Virus record (IMG/VR): IMGVR_UViG_3300047557_002939
Coordinates: 1-33,917 of that record
Reading direction: 5' to 3' (one strand)
From: a virus
DNA length: 33,917 nt
Shown: positions 2,641-32,021 of the stretch, one piece after another
Position numbering within the stretch: position 1 is the first letter of the stretch
How the letters are laid out: each line of letters opens with the position of its first letter
Program-made: the position numbers and the translations under genes
The notes under the pieces: model-generated
What the model saw: the letters and a program-made list of their open reading frames with translations, nothing else
Told to the model about the DNA's origin: nothing
Databases searched by the model: none

Positions 2641-3683
2641 GGCATCAGATCCGGAGTCACCGAGTCGGCGATCACGGCGTTATAGACGCCGGTGTGGTCG
2701 TGCGACAGCACGATGTATTCGATGTCGTGTCGGACATGCTCGAACAGGTAATTGCCTCCGGCATCGCTCCAGCCCTCGCGTGCCAGGAATCCATCCCGCT
2801 TGCGCAGCAGGCGCACCCTGCGGGAGACCGGGTAGTCCGGGTTGCCGACGTTCTTGGTCGTGCCGATGACGCGCCCTCTGCCGCCGTTTTCGAGATCCAC
2901 CAGCGGCCGGCATCCGGACAATAGCGACGGGCTCTGCGCGGGCATCTGGCCACCGACCGCCGCCGACAACGGCACCGCGACCAGCGCCGGTAGCAAGCCG
3001 CCGAACGTGTTGCCAAAGGGCGCCGGCGGCAACACGAAGGCGTCGGTAGCGAAGCCTTGCGCGCCGATATGTATTACCAGGTCGTCGATCTTGCCGATAA
3101 AATCCTTCGCGGCATCGCGATATCTGACCTGAGCGCCGATCGCCATCCTGGCGCCGGTGCCGGGAAACGGCGTCAGATATGGCTGTCCTTGCAGCAGGCT
3201 ATCGAGCACCCCGTCCACCGTGATGTAGACCGCCGGATACAACTGCCCCGTGTAATCATTGGTTTTGCCGACGACGATATGATGCCAGCTGCCATCATTG
3301 ACGGAGACGGTGCCGGCAAAAAGCACGGAATTTTGACACCATACCTCGATACGCCCGCCGTTGTTGATGCGCACCTGGTAGAGATAGTTGAAATAGGTGT
3401 CGTCGATATCGATCAGCACCACCCCTGCCGCAGCCGTTCGCACCCAGAGCGATATCGACCATGGCTCATAGACAAAGGAGCCAATTGGCGCATCGGATCG
3501 AAAATAGTCGCCGGCGCCGTCAAACACCGCACACGACCCACCAAAGACGCCATCCGATGTCGTGATGTGCGCGTCCCCGTAGGCCGTCCACGAGTTGCCC
3601 TTCAGGTCCGGCGCCGCCGTTGCCCCTTCGACGCCGTCGAAGTGCAGCGCCACGCGCGCGCAGTGCCAGAGTGGATCGTCCAC
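2637..3683 (-). CDS. LamG/concanavalin-like tail protein
   Basis: A 348-residue protein with two parts. Residues about 10-215 have the pattern of a LamG/concanavalin-A-like jelly roll: ALHFDG near the start, CAVFDGAGDYF around 50, SISLWVRT around 76, DGSWHHIVVG around 130 and GKIDDLVIH around 197. Residues about 265-348 resemble a small carboxypeptidase-regulatory-like beta domain (RVRLLRKRDG, SDAGGNYLFEHV). Such domains bind carbohydrates or act as spacers on phage tails, so a role in contact with the host surface is likely. The start is GTG, three bases after the preceding stop and without a strong ribosome site. Confidence 0.7.
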   Translation of the reverse strand: MDDPLWHCARVALHFDGVEGATAAPDLKGNSWTAYGDAHITTSDGVFGGSCAVFDGAGDYFRSDAPIGSFVYEPWSISLWVRTAAAGVVLIDIDDTYFNYLYQVRINNGGRIEVWCQNSVLFAGTVSVNDGSWHHIVVGKTNDYTGQLYPAVYITVDGVLDSLLQGQPYLTPFPGTGARMAIGAQVRYRDAAKDFIGKIDDLVIHIGAQGFATDAFVLPPAPFGNTFGGLLPALVAVPLSAAVGGQMPAQSPSLLSGCRPLVDLENGGRGRVIGTTKNVGNPDYPVSRRVRLLRKRDGFLAREGWSDAGGNYLFEHVRHDIEYIVLSHDHTGVYNAVIADSVTPDLMP

Positions 3684-3686
3684 CGA

Positions 3687-4880
3687 TTAAGCCCGCCAAG
3701 GCCCGGTCACGTCGAAAAACACGAAGCCGAAGTAGGTGGCCCCAGTGCCCCCTCCGTAGGGGTGCGCCATCACTCGCCGCCCTGGCAAATTGGCGACGCC
3801 ATCAATGGGGGTTGGCTCGCTGATCCAGGTGTCCGCGATCGCCTGCGGGCTGCAGTACAGCCCGGCAGACTCGCCTCGCAAGTTGGGCACCCCGAACTCC
3901 AGGATGTTGTGCGGCCCGACGTAGAGACCGCCGTCCGGCCCATTCGGGAAAGGAACGGCCCCCCCTCCGGATGCCATCGCCTGCCCGGCATTGGTCAGCG
4001 CGTTGAACATGGCCAGCGCCGGCATGCTGCCGCCCGAGCCATAAAACGCCCTCGCCAGGTAAAGCTCATCCGCTGTGGCCAGCGAGTTGCGCTGCGTCGC
4101 GTAGTCGTTGAGGTCGCCAGAGGACCCGGCGGACGTATCGCTGGCATGCCCCGACAGCACGCAGGCCCACGCATCGCCGGCTTTCTTGGGCAGGATGTCG
4201 CCAAATGCCACCAGCGCACCCGCGGCGCCGACGCTGGCATGCGCCCCCAGGATCAGATAGGCCATCCGATCATCGGCAAACACCGACCACCGCCTGGATG
4301 TGGCGTCGGCCACGTTGCTCTTGGGCCAATAGACCCCCCCGGAGCGCTGCACGGCCGATGGGAAAGGCCCCGCCCCAGCGCTGATGCCCGTCATCGACTC
4401 ATACCCAACGCATCGCGCCACGCGTGCGCCCGTATCATCGACCCGCAGATAACAGCCGGTCGCCGCCACGTTCAAGCTGCGATAGGCCGCCAGATTGGCG
4501 CCGGAAAATGGCTTGCTCCAGCCGGCGCCGGCGAGCTTGAGGCTGATCGCCCCGGTCGCTGCTTGGTCGCCGATGCCGGTCGCGTCATAGGTCAGAGTGG
4601 TCTTTGCGACATTGACCGAGAGCACCTTCTTTTCACCGTTCAGCCCGCCGGGGGCGGCGCCGGAGACCGTGACGACGCTGCCGACCTCCGCGCTGTGGCC
4701 AGCGGCGATGGTGGCGGTCGCGACGTTGGCCGAGACCACCAGGCTGGCGACGGCAGAGACGGCGAAGCCATTGACCAGGCAGGCGTCGAGCACCGCGATG
4801 AGCGACCCGGCAGTGCCCGAGAGAACCGGCGCACCGGGCATCAAGCTATGGAGAAATTTAACGCTGGTATCGGCTGGCAT
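3687..4880 (-). CDS. Tail protein of unknown function
   Basis: A 397-residue protein in the tail-tip block. The sequence is beta-rich and alanine/glycine-rich. Residues about 40-110 look like an immunoglobulin-like domain (VVTVSGAAPGGLNGEKKV, then AKTTLTYD); the remaining two thirds is a compact domain with many aromatic and glycine residues and several cysteines. The Gly-Ser-rich segments fit an extracellular virion protein. It follows the large tail protein after a 20-base gap and is followed three bases later by the LamG gene. Known relatives in Mu-like siphophages are mostly uncharacterised, so only a structural tail role is proposed. Confidence 0.65.
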   Translation of the reverse strand: MPADTSVKFLHSLMPGAPVLSGTAGSLIAVLDACLVNGFAVSAVASLVVSANVATATIAAGHSAEVGSVVTVSGAAPGGLNGEKKVLSVNVAKTTLTYDATGIGDQAATGAISLKLAGAGWSKPFSGANLAAYRSLNVAATGCYLRVDDTGARVARCVGYESMTGISAGAGPFPSAVQRSGGVYWPKSNVADATSRRWSVFADDRMAYLILGAHASVGAAGALVAFGDILPKKAGDAWACVLSGHASDTSAGSSGDLNDYATQRNSLATADELYLARAFYGSGGSMPALAMFNALTNAGQAMASGGGAVPFPNGPDGGLYVGPHNILEFGVPNLRGESAGLYCSPQAIADTWISEPTPIDGVANLPGRRVMAHPYGGGTGATYFGFVFFDVTGPWRA

Positions 4881-16686: not shown

Positions 16687-17211
16687 TCAGACCGTGGCGG
16701 TGCGCGTCTTGAGGTAATCCTCTGCCGAGACACCGAGCAGGCGGCAGACCTTCTGCTCATCGGCACTCAGCGCGGCGATGCCGGCCTGGCCGGCTGGCGC
16801 CGTGCCACCCGTCTGCGTCGTGCCCGGGGTGAGGATCACCGGCATGGCTTCCAGGTAGGAGGTCAGCGCGGCCAGGTCACGCGTGCCGAGGTCGGTGGCC
16901 CAGGTTTCGAGCGCCGGCGTGAGCTTGCCGGCGGCCTTGGCGGCATCGATCACCTGCGCCAGTTCGGCGGCGCTGGCCTTGGCGGTGAGCGCGGCCAGCT
17001 GGCCTTGCAGCCTGCCGTGTTCGGCCTGCAGCGCAGCGAGCGTGCCGACCGGGACGTACTTTGCCGGGTCTGGCGTGGCCAGCGTGGCGACCTGGGCGCC
17101 GAGGGCGGCGACGTTGGTCTGCAGTGCGCTGACGGCAGCGAGCGCGGCAGATTCATCGGCGGTTTCCGCCAGGCCCAGAGCGGCCAGGAGTTTCTTCAGG
17201 GTTTCGTGCAC
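16687..17211 (-). CDS. Internal-start scaffold protein (Mu Z type)
   Basis: A nested 174-residue product in the same frame as the protease. The GTG at 17211 (giving HETLKKLLAALG after Met) is preceded by AGGAG at 17218-17222 with a six-base spacer, stronger than the ribosome site of the protease itself. Mu makes its scaffold gpZ by the same trick, from an in-frame start inside gene I. The product is alanine-rich and largely helical. That it is translated separately is inferred from the ribosome site and the Mu precedent. Confidence 0.7.
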   Translation of the reverse strand: MHETLKKLLAALGLAETADESAALAAVSALQTNVAALGAQVATLATPDPAKYVPVGTLAALQAEHGRLQGQLAALTAKASAAELAQVIDAAKAAGKLTPALETWATDLGTRDLAALTSYLEAMPVILTPGTTQTGGTAPAGQAGIAALSADEQKVCRLLGVSAEDYLKTRTATV

Positions 17212-17778
17212 GGGGTGCTCCTGTGATTGGTAAGTGGGGTGGAGGGTCTGCGCCGCGAGCGCGGCCAGGTCGGTCAGGCCGTCAAGGCCGGGATCGTTGG
17301 TCAGGCTGGCGCCGAGCAGGCTCAGCACGCGCCCGGTACCGGGCTCGTAGGTAAAAAGCGGGGAGATGTAACGGTACTCTCGGTCGGCGATCATGCTGGC
17401 GGCGCGGAACGTCCAGTCGATGCCCGCAGCCCAGAGGCCAGTGTCTGGGTGCCATTCGAGCCGGTCAAACCAGCCCGCGGCCGGGGCCGGCGCGCCGCTC
17501 GCCTTGGCGTGCAGCGTGGCGTGCTCGTAGTCGATGTAACGGGCGGACATGCGCCGCGACATTTCGGCCACCAGGTGCCTGGCGTCCACGTCAGACAGCT
17601 GCCAGGCCGGCGCATCCGCTGGCCGGTCGCTGCCGTCATCGGCGCGAAACGGCCCGGCCGGGATCAGGCGGAGAGTGGTGGGGGCGGCGCCGCCGACCAG
17701 TTCGCGGCGCAAGGCGGCGAAGGCCGGCGGCGCGGAGCGCGCTGCTGGCGGGGGGGTATGAAGGCGTCGAAGGGACAT
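16687..17778 (-). CDS. Phage head maturation protease/scaffold (Mu gpI type)
   Basis: A 363-residue protein combining a head protease and a scaffold, as Mu gene I/Z does. The N-terminal half (about 35-190) has the gpI pattern: RLIPAGPFRADDG, DYEHATLHA near residue 83 (with its His), APAAGWFDRLEWHPDTGLWA around 96, and REYRYISPLFTYEP around 132. The remainder (190-363) is Ala/Leu-rich and probably coiled coil, ending near a conserved LSADEQKVCRLLGVSAEDYLK. The protease cuts the scaffold from assembling proheads. It is the first head gene after the cargo interval; its start ATG at 17778 has only a weak ribosome site. Confidence 0.9.
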   Translation of the reverse strand: MSLRRLHTPPPAARSAPPAFAALRRELVGGAAPTTLRLIPAGPFRADDGSDRPADAPAWQLSDVDARHLVAEMSRRMSARYIDYEHATLHAKASGAPAPAAGWFDRLEWHPDTGLWAAGIDWTFRAASMIADREYRYISPLFTYEPGTGRVLSLLGASLTNDPGLDGLTDLAALAAQTLHPTYQSQEHPVHETLKKLLAALGLAETADESAALAAVSALQTNVAALGAQVATLATPDPAKYVPVGTLAALQAEHGRLQGQLAALTAKASAAELAQVIDAAKAAGKLTPALETWATDLGTRDLAALTSYLEAMPVILTPGTTQTGGTAPAGQAGIAALSADEQKVCRLLGVSAEDYLKTRTATV

Positions 17779-17857: not shown

Positions 17858-17880
17858 GCACAGCGCCCGCCCTTGTTAGA

Positions 17881-17920
17881 CTACAGTTTTCTGTGCTTCG
17901 GCTACAGTTTTCTGTGCTTC
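17881..17920. repeat. Direct repeat with internal dyad, 21-bp spacing
   Basis: The 19-base unit CTACAGTTTTCTGTGCTTC occurs at 17881-17899 and again at 17902-17920, perfectly repeated with a 21-bp period (two DNA turns). Each copy contains the inverted repeat ACAG-TTTT-CTGT. Two dyads on the same helical face is a typical operator layout, but no binding protein is known. Confidence 0.6.
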
Positions 17921-18196
17921 CATTACCGCGCGCTGAGTGCCCTGCATCGCCCCCCTTTTCCCCCTGGCAGGACGGCGATGGATGGCGGCGGGGTACTGCA
18001 GCGGGGACGAGGCATGCCGGCCAGTTTGGCGGCATGCCGAGGGGGCGTCAGCCAAAAGGGTTCTAACGTCTGGCGGCTGCCCAGATGGCGGCATTGGCGA
18101 GCGCCTGATACCGAGAAAAACCAGCGTTATTTCTGTGCTAAATGTAGAATGTGAGGACTTTTCCTACTTTCCGGCATTGCACGAGGATATGCTCGC

Positions 18197-18736
18197 ATGC
18201 GAGACGATGATGACGAGGCGAGTGTTGCCGTTGTCACGGTAGACGAGATCACTCTCTACTGTGTTAAGGCGCCTTGGGTTGACCGCGCTGGGAGTGAGGA
18301 CAGAATTGGCACGCTGGCGATCACGCAGAAGCAGCTTGGCGCGTATGCGACGATGGGGCTGACGAGCGGCCTCGCTCAGTTTCAGCGCATCGTGGCTCCA
18401 GGGATCATTCTGGCCCGGCACATCTTCCGTGGTTTGATGCGGCCGATGTCCGTCGGCGGGAACATGTGCGCCGACCGGGACAAGCTGGTCTATAGCTGGA
18501 AGCCGAGGTTTGACTACGAGTGGCCTGGTGACCGTTTCAAGTATCCACCGGTCGAACTGGAACCTCCTGCGGGCCGTGTGTTTGTCGTCTTGGTGACTCC
18601 GAACTCGTCTGACCAATTCCCGATGGTCGATGGTTGGATCGAGCGGTGGAACTGGGTGCTCGGGAGCGACGATCTGTTTGCTGCGCCGATCAAGCATTCC
18701 GAGCGTTATGAAGAACAACTATGGAGAGCGACATGA
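18197..18736 (+). CDS. Cargo protein A of unknown function
   Basis: A 179-residue protein on the opposite strand to all phage structural genes. I do not recognise the family. The N-terminus is acidic (RDDDDE), followed by a mixed alpha/beta body with aromatic patches (YSWKPRFDYEWPGDRF around 121-136) and VFVVLVTPNSSDQFPMVDGWIERWNWVLG around 147-166 as its best-defined region. No signal peptide or transmembrane helix is seen. GAGGA lies nine bases upstream of the ATG. Its GC content is visibly lower than the neighbouring head genes, and it overlaps cargo gene B in an ATGA. Together these features mark a separately acquired two-gene operon. Confidence 0.7.
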   Translation: MRDDDDEASVAVVTVDEITLYCVKAPWVDRAGSEDRIGTLAITQKQLGAYATMGLTSGLAQFQRIVAPGIILARHIFRGLMRPMSVGGNMCADRDKLVYSWKPRFDYEWPGDRFKYPPVELEPPAGRVFVVLVTPNSSDQFPMVDGWIERWNWVLGSDDLFAAPIKHSERYEEQLWRAT

Positions 18737-19164
18737 ATGAGACTGTTATCGAGCTGAATGGCCAGCCACCATGGATGGTGGAACTGCTGAGGGCTTACCC
18801 GCCGTCCCCTTTCAAGCAGCGCGCCTACTATGACAAGCACCTCGACTGCATCCGCGTGGTCATTCGCGAGTGCAGCGTCTGCGAGCATCGACTGACGGCC
18901 ATCATGACCGTTCTTGAGGACAACTACCCAGAGCCTGGGCAGCAACCCTTCGTCGGCTTCGTGATCAAGGGCGTTGAACACCTCTTCAAGCAGATTGGTT
19001 TGCCGCTCGAAGGGGTTCTGCCGTTCATTGAACTCTTCGACAAGCTGGCGAAGTTGCATGGCGACGAGCTGACGGAGATAGTCCTTCAGCCGTATCAGGG
19101 TCTGCTGCAGGTGTTGAAGGACATTGAGCTGAAGGTCGATTTCGCCGAGGCGATGGCGGCGTAG
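18733..19164 (+). CDS. Cargo protein B of unknown function
   Basis: A 143-residue, mostly helical protein downstream of cargo gene A. The ATG at 18733 overlaps the A stop (ATGA) and has GGAG six bases upstream; an in-frame ATG at 18721 has none, so the later start is preferred. The protein is acidic and leucine-rich: ELLRAYPPSPFKQRAYYDKH near the start, a cysteine pair CSVC at about 52-55, then amphipathic helices with VEHLFKQIGLPLEGVLPFIELFDKLAKL around 86-113. No known domain is recognised. Coupled translation suggests that A and B act together, perhaps as a complex. Confidence 0.7.
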   Translation: MNETVIELNGQPPWMVELLRAYPPSPFKQRAYYDKHLDCIRVVIRECSVCEHRLTAIMTVLEDNYPEPGQQPFVGFVIKGVEHLFKQIGLPLEGVLPFIELFDKLAKLHGDELTEIVLQPYQGLLQVLKDIELKVDFAEAMAA

Positions 19165-19207
19165 CAGAACGTGCTGAGGCGTCGATTTTGATTCAGTGGC
19201 TGTGTTC

Positions 19208-19229
19208 GGCTCGAGCGGGCCGAGCCTTT
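19208..19229 (+). terminator. Hairpin downstream of cargo operon
   Basis: GGCTCG and CGAGCC form a 6-bp stem with a 7-base loop, followed by TTT, 44 bases after the stop of cargo gene B. It is a weak candidate terminator. Confidence 0.4.
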
Positions 19230-19272
19230 GGCGACAGTCTTCAGACAGGCTTCAGTGCGATCAACAGGGGGC

Positions 19273-19300
19273 AAAGGGGTCTGAACTCCCCCTTTTCCTG
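19273..19300 (+). terminator. Second hairpin with T-rich tail
   Basis: AAAGGGG and CCCCTTT form a 7-bp stem with a 9-base loop, followed by a T-rich tail (TCCTGTTTATT). It could terminate the cargo operon. The AAAGGGGTC...CCCCTTTT look also resembles REP-type palindromes of proteobacteria. Confidence 0.45.
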
Positions 19301-19326
19301 TTTATTCTTACGTGGGGGCCTGAATG

Positions 19327-19353
19327 CAGTTGTTCGGCAGAGCCGAACAACTG
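19327..19353. terminator. Perfect 12-bp hairpin between convergent genes
   Basis: CAGTTGTTCGGC pairs perfectly with GCCGAACAACTG across the loop AGA. It lies 11 bases past the stop of the minus-strand DUF4124 gene and downstream of the plus-strand cargo operon. No T run follows on either strand, so it may act as a transcription barrier or RNA stabiliser rather than a classical terminator. Confidence 0.5.
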
Positions 19354-19364
19354 ATTAGCCGTGG

Positions 19365-19889
19365 TCAGCGACTTGCCTGCAGGCTGGCCTTCTCGCGGCG
19401 CAGCGCATCGATGCGGGCCGTGTGTTTGCTGGTGGCTGCCTGCATCTCCTGCGAGATGCTGCTCTCCCAGGTCGCGCCGGCGAGGTTGTTGGCAGACCGG
19501 TACTTACGCTGCCTGAGCTTCTCCAGCTCGTCGTCCATCTCGCGCTCGGCGTCGCGAATCTCGAAGCCCAGCTCGCGAATGCGCCGCTCCTTGGCCATTT
19601 GCGCCAGCTGCTCCTGGCGCGCCTTTTGGGCATCGGCAGGGGCTGGCGTGGCTGCGTCTGGCGCGCGCGCCGCGATGGCCGGGGCCGGGGCCGGGGCTGG
19701 CGGCTCGGTCGTCTGTACGATGGTCTTTGGCTGCGCCCCCGCCTGCGGGCCGCTGATCAGGACAGCCGACTTGCCGCAGGGGCGCTCGGCGTACTTGACG
19801 ACCCCACCTTCGGTGCATTTGTAGAGGCTTTGCGCCACCGCCCCCAGGGGGGCGAGCGCGAGGAGGAGCGCGAACAGGGAAGGTTTCAT
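19365..19889 (-). CDS. Exported DUF4124 domain protein
   Basis: A 174-residue protein of the DUF4124 family, common in beta- and gammaproteobacterial genomes. It has a signal peptide (about residues 1-20, ending AVAQ) and the DUF4124 core SLYKCTEGGVVKYAERPCGK (about 21-40, two cysteines likely forming a disulfide). A Pro/Ala-rich linker (about 62-90) and a charged coiled coil (about 92-170) follow. The family's job is unknown. The ATG at 19889 is chosen because the signal peptide begins there; a TTG six codons earlier is possible. It is oriented like the phage genes but separated by long gaps, so it is probably host-derived cargo. Confidence 0.75.
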   Translation of the reverse strand: MKPSLFALLLALAPLGAVAQSLYKCTEGGVVKYAERPCGKSAVLISGPQAGAQPKTIVQTTEPPAPAPAPAIAARAPDAATPAPADAQKARQEQLAQMAKERRIRELGFEIRDAEREMDDELEKLRQRKYRSANNLAGATWESSISQEMQAATSKHTARIDALRREKASLQASR

Positions 19890-31586: not shown

Positions 31587-32021
31587 TCAAAACAAAATCC
31601 CCTGCCCCGACCCGATCCCGCTCACCGGCTGCCCGGGGCAGCGCTTGAGGATGGTGCGGATCTGCCGGTCGGTCAGGGTGTGCTCGCGGGCGAGGCTGTT
31701 GACCGACTGGCCGGCATCGTAGGCGGCGATGATCCGCCGGTCGCGCATGTCGCGCAGAGCCTGCGCGCAGCGCGGGATGAATAGCCGTTCGCCGCCGTAG
31801 GCAGCAATCAGCGCCCGCGTAGCCGGCTCGCCGATCAGCTCGATCAGTTCAAGCAGCTGCTGGCCGTCTGCCCGCGCGCCGGTCGGCACGCGCAGCACGG
31901 TGCCGCCATAGACCCGGACGAGGGTCATCGTCGCCGGCAGGCCGATGTGCGCGACCATCTCGCGCACCGAGCGCGGCAATGCGGCGGCGTCTGTGTCGTC
32001 TTCGGCGGCGGTGTCGTTCAT
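31587..32021 (-). CDS. mor: Mor-type transcription activator
   Basis: A 144-residue Mor/C-type activator of the middle or late promoter of Mu-like phages. It has a duplicated dimerisation-type segment: LPATMTLVRVYGGTVLRVP (28-46) and EPATRALIAAYGGERLFIP (65-83). The C-terminal helix-turn-helix follows (about 96-127, with AAYDAGQSVNSLAREHTLTDRQIRTILK). Mor binds as a dimer and recruits RNA polymerase. Only one such protein occurs in the window, whereas Mu has both Mor and C, so this one may serve both purposes. GAGG precedes the ATG. Confidence 0.9.
   Translation of the reverse strand: MNDTAAEDDTDAAALPRSVREMVAHIGLPATMTLVRVYGGTVLRVPTGARADGQQLLELIELIGEPATRALIAAYGGERLFIPRCAQALRDMRDRRIIAAYDAGQSVNSLAREHTLTDRQIRTILKRCPGQPVSGIGSGQGILF

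Follow-up and report, generated by a model that had tools for sequence, protein, structure and literature searches.

A Co-inherited Two-Gene Accessory Cassette Running against the Late Head Operon at the MuF–Protease Junction of a Phage with Mu-Like Late Genes

The Gene Pair and Its Phage

The DNA analysed (the window) is the whole 33,917-nt stretch of the virus record IMGVR_UViG_3300047557_002939. Its minus strand carries Mu-like late genes, namely those for the large terminase, portal, MuF, head protease, major head protein, and tail, and a match to a late transcription activator family is found at 31587–32021. A second contig, the twin of the window (L006), shows one mismatch in 20.5 kb and an identical arrangement of the gene pair described below. 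The twin reaches 8.8 kb beyond the window, and in the early region found there a 778-aa protein looks by eye like a MuA-like transposase; the Pfam DDE_2 model had no match in the record of the twin, this protein included. Based on the Mu-like late genes and the MuA-like early protein, the phage is most likely a transposable, Mu-like phage.

Two genes, ORF1 and ORF2, are placed between the protease gene (gene I) and the MuF gene (gene F), that is, at the F–I junction. The features of the locus are as follows:

16687–17778, minus strand: Mu-like head maturation protease (gene I), flanking the pair; family match
17876–17917: tandem repeat of 21 nt in two copies, both with the palindrome ACAGTTTTCTGT, located in the divergent spacer that separates ORF1 from the protease gene; repeat search
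18184–18187, plus strand: Shine-Dalgarno-like AGGA, 9 nt before the ATG of ORF1; sequence
18197–18736, plus strand: ORF1 (179 aa), which opens the pair; ORF and homologue alignment
18721–19164, plus strand: ORF2, with two possible starts, the ATG at 18721 (147 aa) and the coupled ATG at 18733 (143 aa); ORF and homologue alignment
18733–18736, plus strand: ATGA overlap of the ORF1 stop and the ORF2 start; sequence
19165–19364: hairpin-bearing spacer on which ORF2 and the DUF4124 gene converge; inverted-repeat search and folding
19365–19889, minus strand: DUF4124 gene, accessory neighbour of the pair, with a signal-peptide-like N-terminus; also at the MuF–protease junction in contig L011
20335–21855, minus strand: MuF-like minor head protein (gene F), flanking the pair; family match

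The original prediction, made from the sequence of the window, had singled these out as its only two convincing plus-strand genes. Coordinates and a codon-position test on ORFs of at least 60 aa agree: ORF1 and ORF2 are the sole plus-strand ORFs of that size which lie mostly outside minus-strand genes and have coding-like codon positions, with GC3 exceeding GC2 by 0.24 and 0.49, respectively. The proposed ATGA coupling with an internal ribosome site was likewise recovered, as GGAGAG at 18723–18728 precedes the internal ATG at 18733 and is the likely ribosome site for ORF2. Alignment with the homologues showed the conserved motifs HIFxGLxRP ... KLVYSWKP ... VFVVI ... GWIExWNWV ... APxxWxxRYxxKLW in ORF1, and AYYDKHLDCIRV ... 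CS..E.R ... VGFxIKGVxHLF in ORF2. AlphaFold2 single-sequence models of the two proteins had pLDDT values of 41 and 30, too low for use.

The GC content of ORF1 (58.5%) and ORF2 (57.0%) is below that of the window (66.2%), the protease gene (71%), and the DUF4124 gene (69%). A base composition differing from that of the neighbours (57–58.5% vs. 66–71%) is a mark of morons. The lower GC noted originally thus holds against the window and these two genes, but not against the 3′ part of the MuF gene, which is equally GC-poor (56–58%), and therefore the low GC of the pair alone is not diagnostic. Separately, an exact 17-nt direct repeat, TGCGGGCCGTGTGTTTG, occurs at 18568–18584 within ORF1 and at 19412–19428 within the DUF4124 gene, possibly by chance or as a trace of recombination.

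Regulatory Sequences around the Pair

Repeats upstream of the pair had been reported as part of the module. The two 21-nt copies do exist, and tandem repeats with ACAGTTTTCTGT occur at no other place in the window, but they lie 280 nt from ORF1 and approximately 100 nt upstream of the opposite-strand protease gene. Since they are nearer to the protease gene, they are possibly its control sites; they could be regulator sites of either the protease gene or ORF1, or serve as late-promoter activator sites. Gene I of Mu is preceded by a late promoter, and such a promoter here would explain why the junction tolerates inserts. A consensus promoter was sought 5′ of ORF1 in the window and was not found.

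The hairpins originally noted downstream are present. One, with a T-rich tail, is located at 19276–19289, and a perfect 12-bp inverted repeat spans 19327–19353. Folding of 19165–19364 gave a stable structure (z −3.3), and this spacer is predicted to be a likely transcription terminator region. An integron cassette was rejected, because no attC-like site was found and the inverted repeat at 19327–19353 has, by eye, its GTT/AAC arms in the wrong order. An RNA element at the locus was also rejected, the sole match being a eukaryotic IRES model below threshold.

The MuF–Protease Junction

The junction was surveyed in 37 contigs with a measurable MuF–protease interval. This interval is <120 nt in 14 contigs, at most 412 nt in 29, approximately 0.7 kb in two, and 2.1–2.7 kb in six. 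The pair therefore separates two genes that adjoin each other in related phages (spacing of at most 412 nt in 29 of the 37), a further property of morons. The six large inserts include that of the twin, and four independent ones hold cargo on the opposite strand. The MuF–protease junction is thus a cargo spot, as had been proposed.

The cargo running against the late operon is diverse. It includes a Bro-N gene in L011, a 672-aa protein in L022 (9052–11070, minus strand) with no Pfam or PADLOC match, and a 477-aa protein of low GC in L025. In L028 (8909–11411, minus strand), such cargo comprises an alpha/beta-hydrolase-domain protein matching the PADLOC model LmuA (E 9e-15), together with a protein of 237 aa that contains cysteine pairs. 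The L028 hydrolase shares with our pair the junction, in a related phage, and the opposite strand; the proteins themselves are unrelated, and only one Lamassu-like component was matched in L028.

Three other observations concern these junctions. By eye, the L022 protein resembles a GHKL-type ATPase. In L016, low-GC junction cargo lies on the late strand (2999–4535, plus strand) and encodes a DUF4747 protein and, after it, a hydrophobic protein of 193 aa. The DUF4124 gene of the window (19365–19889, minus strand) has a 54% homologue at the same junction in L011, there not against the late operon, and is therefore itself shared accessory cargo.

Homologues and Their Genomic Contexts

Occurrence of the pair together in other genomes had been proposed as a check, and it was found, in other phages as well as in one restriction–modification locus. 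ORF1 seeds had no match in approximately 85,000 species genomes. ORF2 seeds matched three loci, in Latescibacterota (L068, 47%), Magnetominusculus (L069, 38%), and Thiosymbion (L070, 42%). Although these loci were located with ORF2 alone as the query, each has an ORF1 homologue (E 1e-27 to 1e-36) immediately before ORF2. Viral contigs searched with alignments revealed both genes in L071 and L072, ORF2 beside an ORF1 stub (LAPIDRDERYSQRVWS) in L103, and an ORF2 fragment in L104. This truncated frame of L104 (6–230) adjoins T4-like recombination genes (gp46/47-like by eye), and could represent either decay of a copy or a chimera at the contig end. No real match was obtained by tblastn with ORF1 and ORF2 against phage records, or with these and their homologues against plasmid records. 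The pair is absent from most relatives of the phage.

Sampling of genomes around the cellular homologues gave one further pair only, a remote one, and the family is therefore rare at this sensitivity. The remote pair of Nitrospirota L079 (8031–8845) has the same gene order and C-terminal motifs, with profile matches of 95.9% (E 6e-9) for ORF2, compared from an assumed start a few codons too late, and a weak one (E 0.002) for ORF1. This pair suggests a wider uncharacterised superfamily.

All six complete close members, which come from three bacterial lineages and three phages, have ORF1 immediately before ORF2. Five of them (the window, L068, L069, L070, and L071) share the ATGA overlap, and L072 has a gap of 44 nt. 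The genes of L079 overlap by approximately 19 nt (by eye), and even the ORF1 stub of L103 enters ORF2 through an ATGA. The distances within the two families are correlated (Mantel r 0.58, permutation p 0.03), and in both family trees the window groups with L068 and L070 groups with L071. The copy in our phage is therefore closest to that of a Latescibacterota, which suggests that the two genes have moved horizontally together.

Promoter-like sequences precede ORF1 in several members: TTGACA-17-TATCTT approximately 40 nt before the gene in L068, a perfect sigma-70 consensus (12/12) just upstream in L069, and a 10/12 match in L070. In L068, ORF2 is followed by a strong terminator, formed by a GC-rich hairpin of 10 bp and a T-rich tail. 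The pair is a mobile bicistronic moron for which autonomous expression is probable.

The bacterial homologues occur without phage genes nearby. In L068, hsdS and hsdM of a type I restriction locus flank the pair, and in L070 an Eco57I/type IIG restriction-methylase gene is approximately 3.4 kb away; no defence genes were recognised next to the pairs of L069 and L079. Restriction–modification genes are thus near two of the four cellular pairs, a sample too small for a defence-island statistic. In the viral contigs L071, L072, and L103, the genes share the strand of the late genes, so the opposite orientation is not a family trait. ORF2 of L103 comes directly after a tail gene, and its retention after the loss of ORF1 suggests that ORF2 is tolerated, and would be harmless, alone.

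Searches for Family and Function

Consistent with the view that neither protein belongs to a recognised family, no member of either family matched Pfam, and the two proteins of the window matched no PHROG or NCBIfam model. Known defence models (PADLOC-DB) gave no credible match. The sole PADLOC match, Cas10h (19.9 bits, in the acidic N-terminal part of ORF1 of the window), was rejected owing to its low score, the acidic stretch involved, and its absence from the other five members. Known toxin or antitoxin families matched no member in Pfam, nor the window's pair in NCBIfam. A helix-turn-helix family of the aca type was found in neither protein (Pfam), and thus no acr–aca arrangement was recognised. 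A PDB sequence search with the two proteins gave nothing credible. Within the libraries and open-access papers searched, which are not the complete literature, both protein families are undescribed.

ORF2 resembles DUF2283 (PF10049), a family picked by eye, in the spacing YD-x3-D-x-I and the later E and VG-x-I positions. The hhalign probability is 5% (P ~0.007), with a score above 300 of 300 column shuffles. ORF2 differs from DUF2283 in being twice as long and in having no significant hit in the Pfam scan for this family, and the likeness is a suggestive lead only.

Discussion

The locus carries a mobile, co-inherited two-gene accessory cassette, that is, a bicistronic moron, at the F–I junction, where it runs counter to the late head genes. 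As an example of a phage moron it is new and undescribed. The original prediction had been a lysogenic-conversion unit, possibly a defence or exclusion pair; it is partly supported, in that the pair is cargo at a cargo spot, forms an opposite-strand unit, and is conserved elsewhere, while expression in the lysogen and a defence role are putative.

As to function, an anti-phage or superinfection-exclusion role is considered the most likely, in view of the carriage by phages, the orientation against the late operon, the copy in a restriction locus, and the further cargo found at the junction. ORF1 and ORF2 would be translationally coupled and transcribed on their own from the repressed prophage. 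The two proteins may then act jointly to protect the lysogen, with ORF1 as the effector and ORF2 as its coupled partner, regulator, or antidote. We give this reading a probability of roughly 0.4. In its favour are the co-occurrence in 6/6 members, the ATGA in 5/6, the distance correlation, the promoter-like sites of L068, L069, and L070, and the L068 terminator. The restriction contexts of L068 and L070, the opposite-strand cargo including the LmuA-like protein, and ORF2 without intact ORF1 in L103 were also counted for it. Against it are the lack of any defence, toxin, or antitoxin family match, the neighbours of L069 and L079, the late-strand members, and the missing promoter in the window. 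More tentatively still, the pair could represent an undescribed two-component anti-phage (exclusion) system from families outside Pfam, PHROGs, and PADLOC, which would move between bacteria and unrelated phages with the F–I junction as one docking place.

Such a role would recall lambda rexAB and olg1/gene 10 of Fc02 (PMC9936078), small gene pairs of temperate phages with proposed exclusion of other phages. In Fc02, the two genes occupy opposite strands of the repressor region and overlap there, whereas the present pair is located in the head operon. In comparison with both systems, our pair has no family match to any known protein (no Pfam family matched ORF1 or ORF2), and its exclusion role is putative.

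Two small coupled genes, mobile, rare, and present in chromosomes without defence neighbours (L069 and L079), could also constitute a host-fitness, regulatory, or addiction (toxin–antitoxin-like) module with no specific anti-phage role. ORF2 may in that case be a DUF2283-like small beta protein controlling ORF1. The register YD...D.I...E...VG..I shared with DUF2283 and the shuffle result are in line with this, and so is the persistence of ORF2 alone in L103, as would be possible for an antidote. Set against the low hhalign probability for a family chosen by eye, and the lack of a toxin family match, a module of this kind appears somewhat unlikely.

Cargo that aids the phage on entry, either anti-restriction or anti-CRISPR, is less probable again. 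In Mu-like Pseudomonas phages, the anti-CRISPR locus lies just upstream of the protease gene and its genes follow the direction of the late operon, whereas our pair runs against it. The cellular copies, found in or near restriction systems or away from phage genes, and the lack of an Aca-like helix-turn-helix partner (Pfam) also speak against such a role. Its main support is the precedent of these Pseudomonas phages, whose morons occupy regions of genomic plasticity, RGP A–I, with the anti-CRISPR genes in the low-GC RGP G (PMC4378225). Our pair is like the RGPs in being formed by low-GC accessory genes between core head genes, absent in close relatives. The RGPs, however, mostly hold single ORFs of 34–100 codons (PMC4378225), whereas our pair consists of two coupled genes (179 and 143 aa), runs on the opposite strand, and has homologues in distant bacteria.

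Ordinary virion or late genes are a very improbable explanation. The late-strand genes of L071, L072, and L103, and the tail gene directly before ORF2 in L103, would fit it, but in the window the pair is on the opposite strand, bacterial homologues have no phage genes nearby, one copy is inside a type I restriction locus, and most relatives of the phage lack the genes. The pair is almost certainly not a virion gene set. The original prediction had named two contrary outcomes, homologues that are ordinary virion genes and absence of the pair elsewhere, and neither was observed.

Spurious ORFs or an assembly artefact can be dismissed with near certainty: minus-strand ORFs of similar length do overlap both genes, but homologues at 30–51% identity keep the plus-strand frames and the gene order, which is decisive for both ORFs being genuine, and the near-identical twin contig has the same arrangement.

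An orphan gene pair has thereby become a defined, testable module, with conserved residues, a constant gene order and coupling, natural occurrence in several settings (among them a restriction locus), and a relative that has a decayed ORF1. The F–I junction of Mu-like phages, with its unstudied opposite-strand genes, is a place to seek new defence or exclusion systems.
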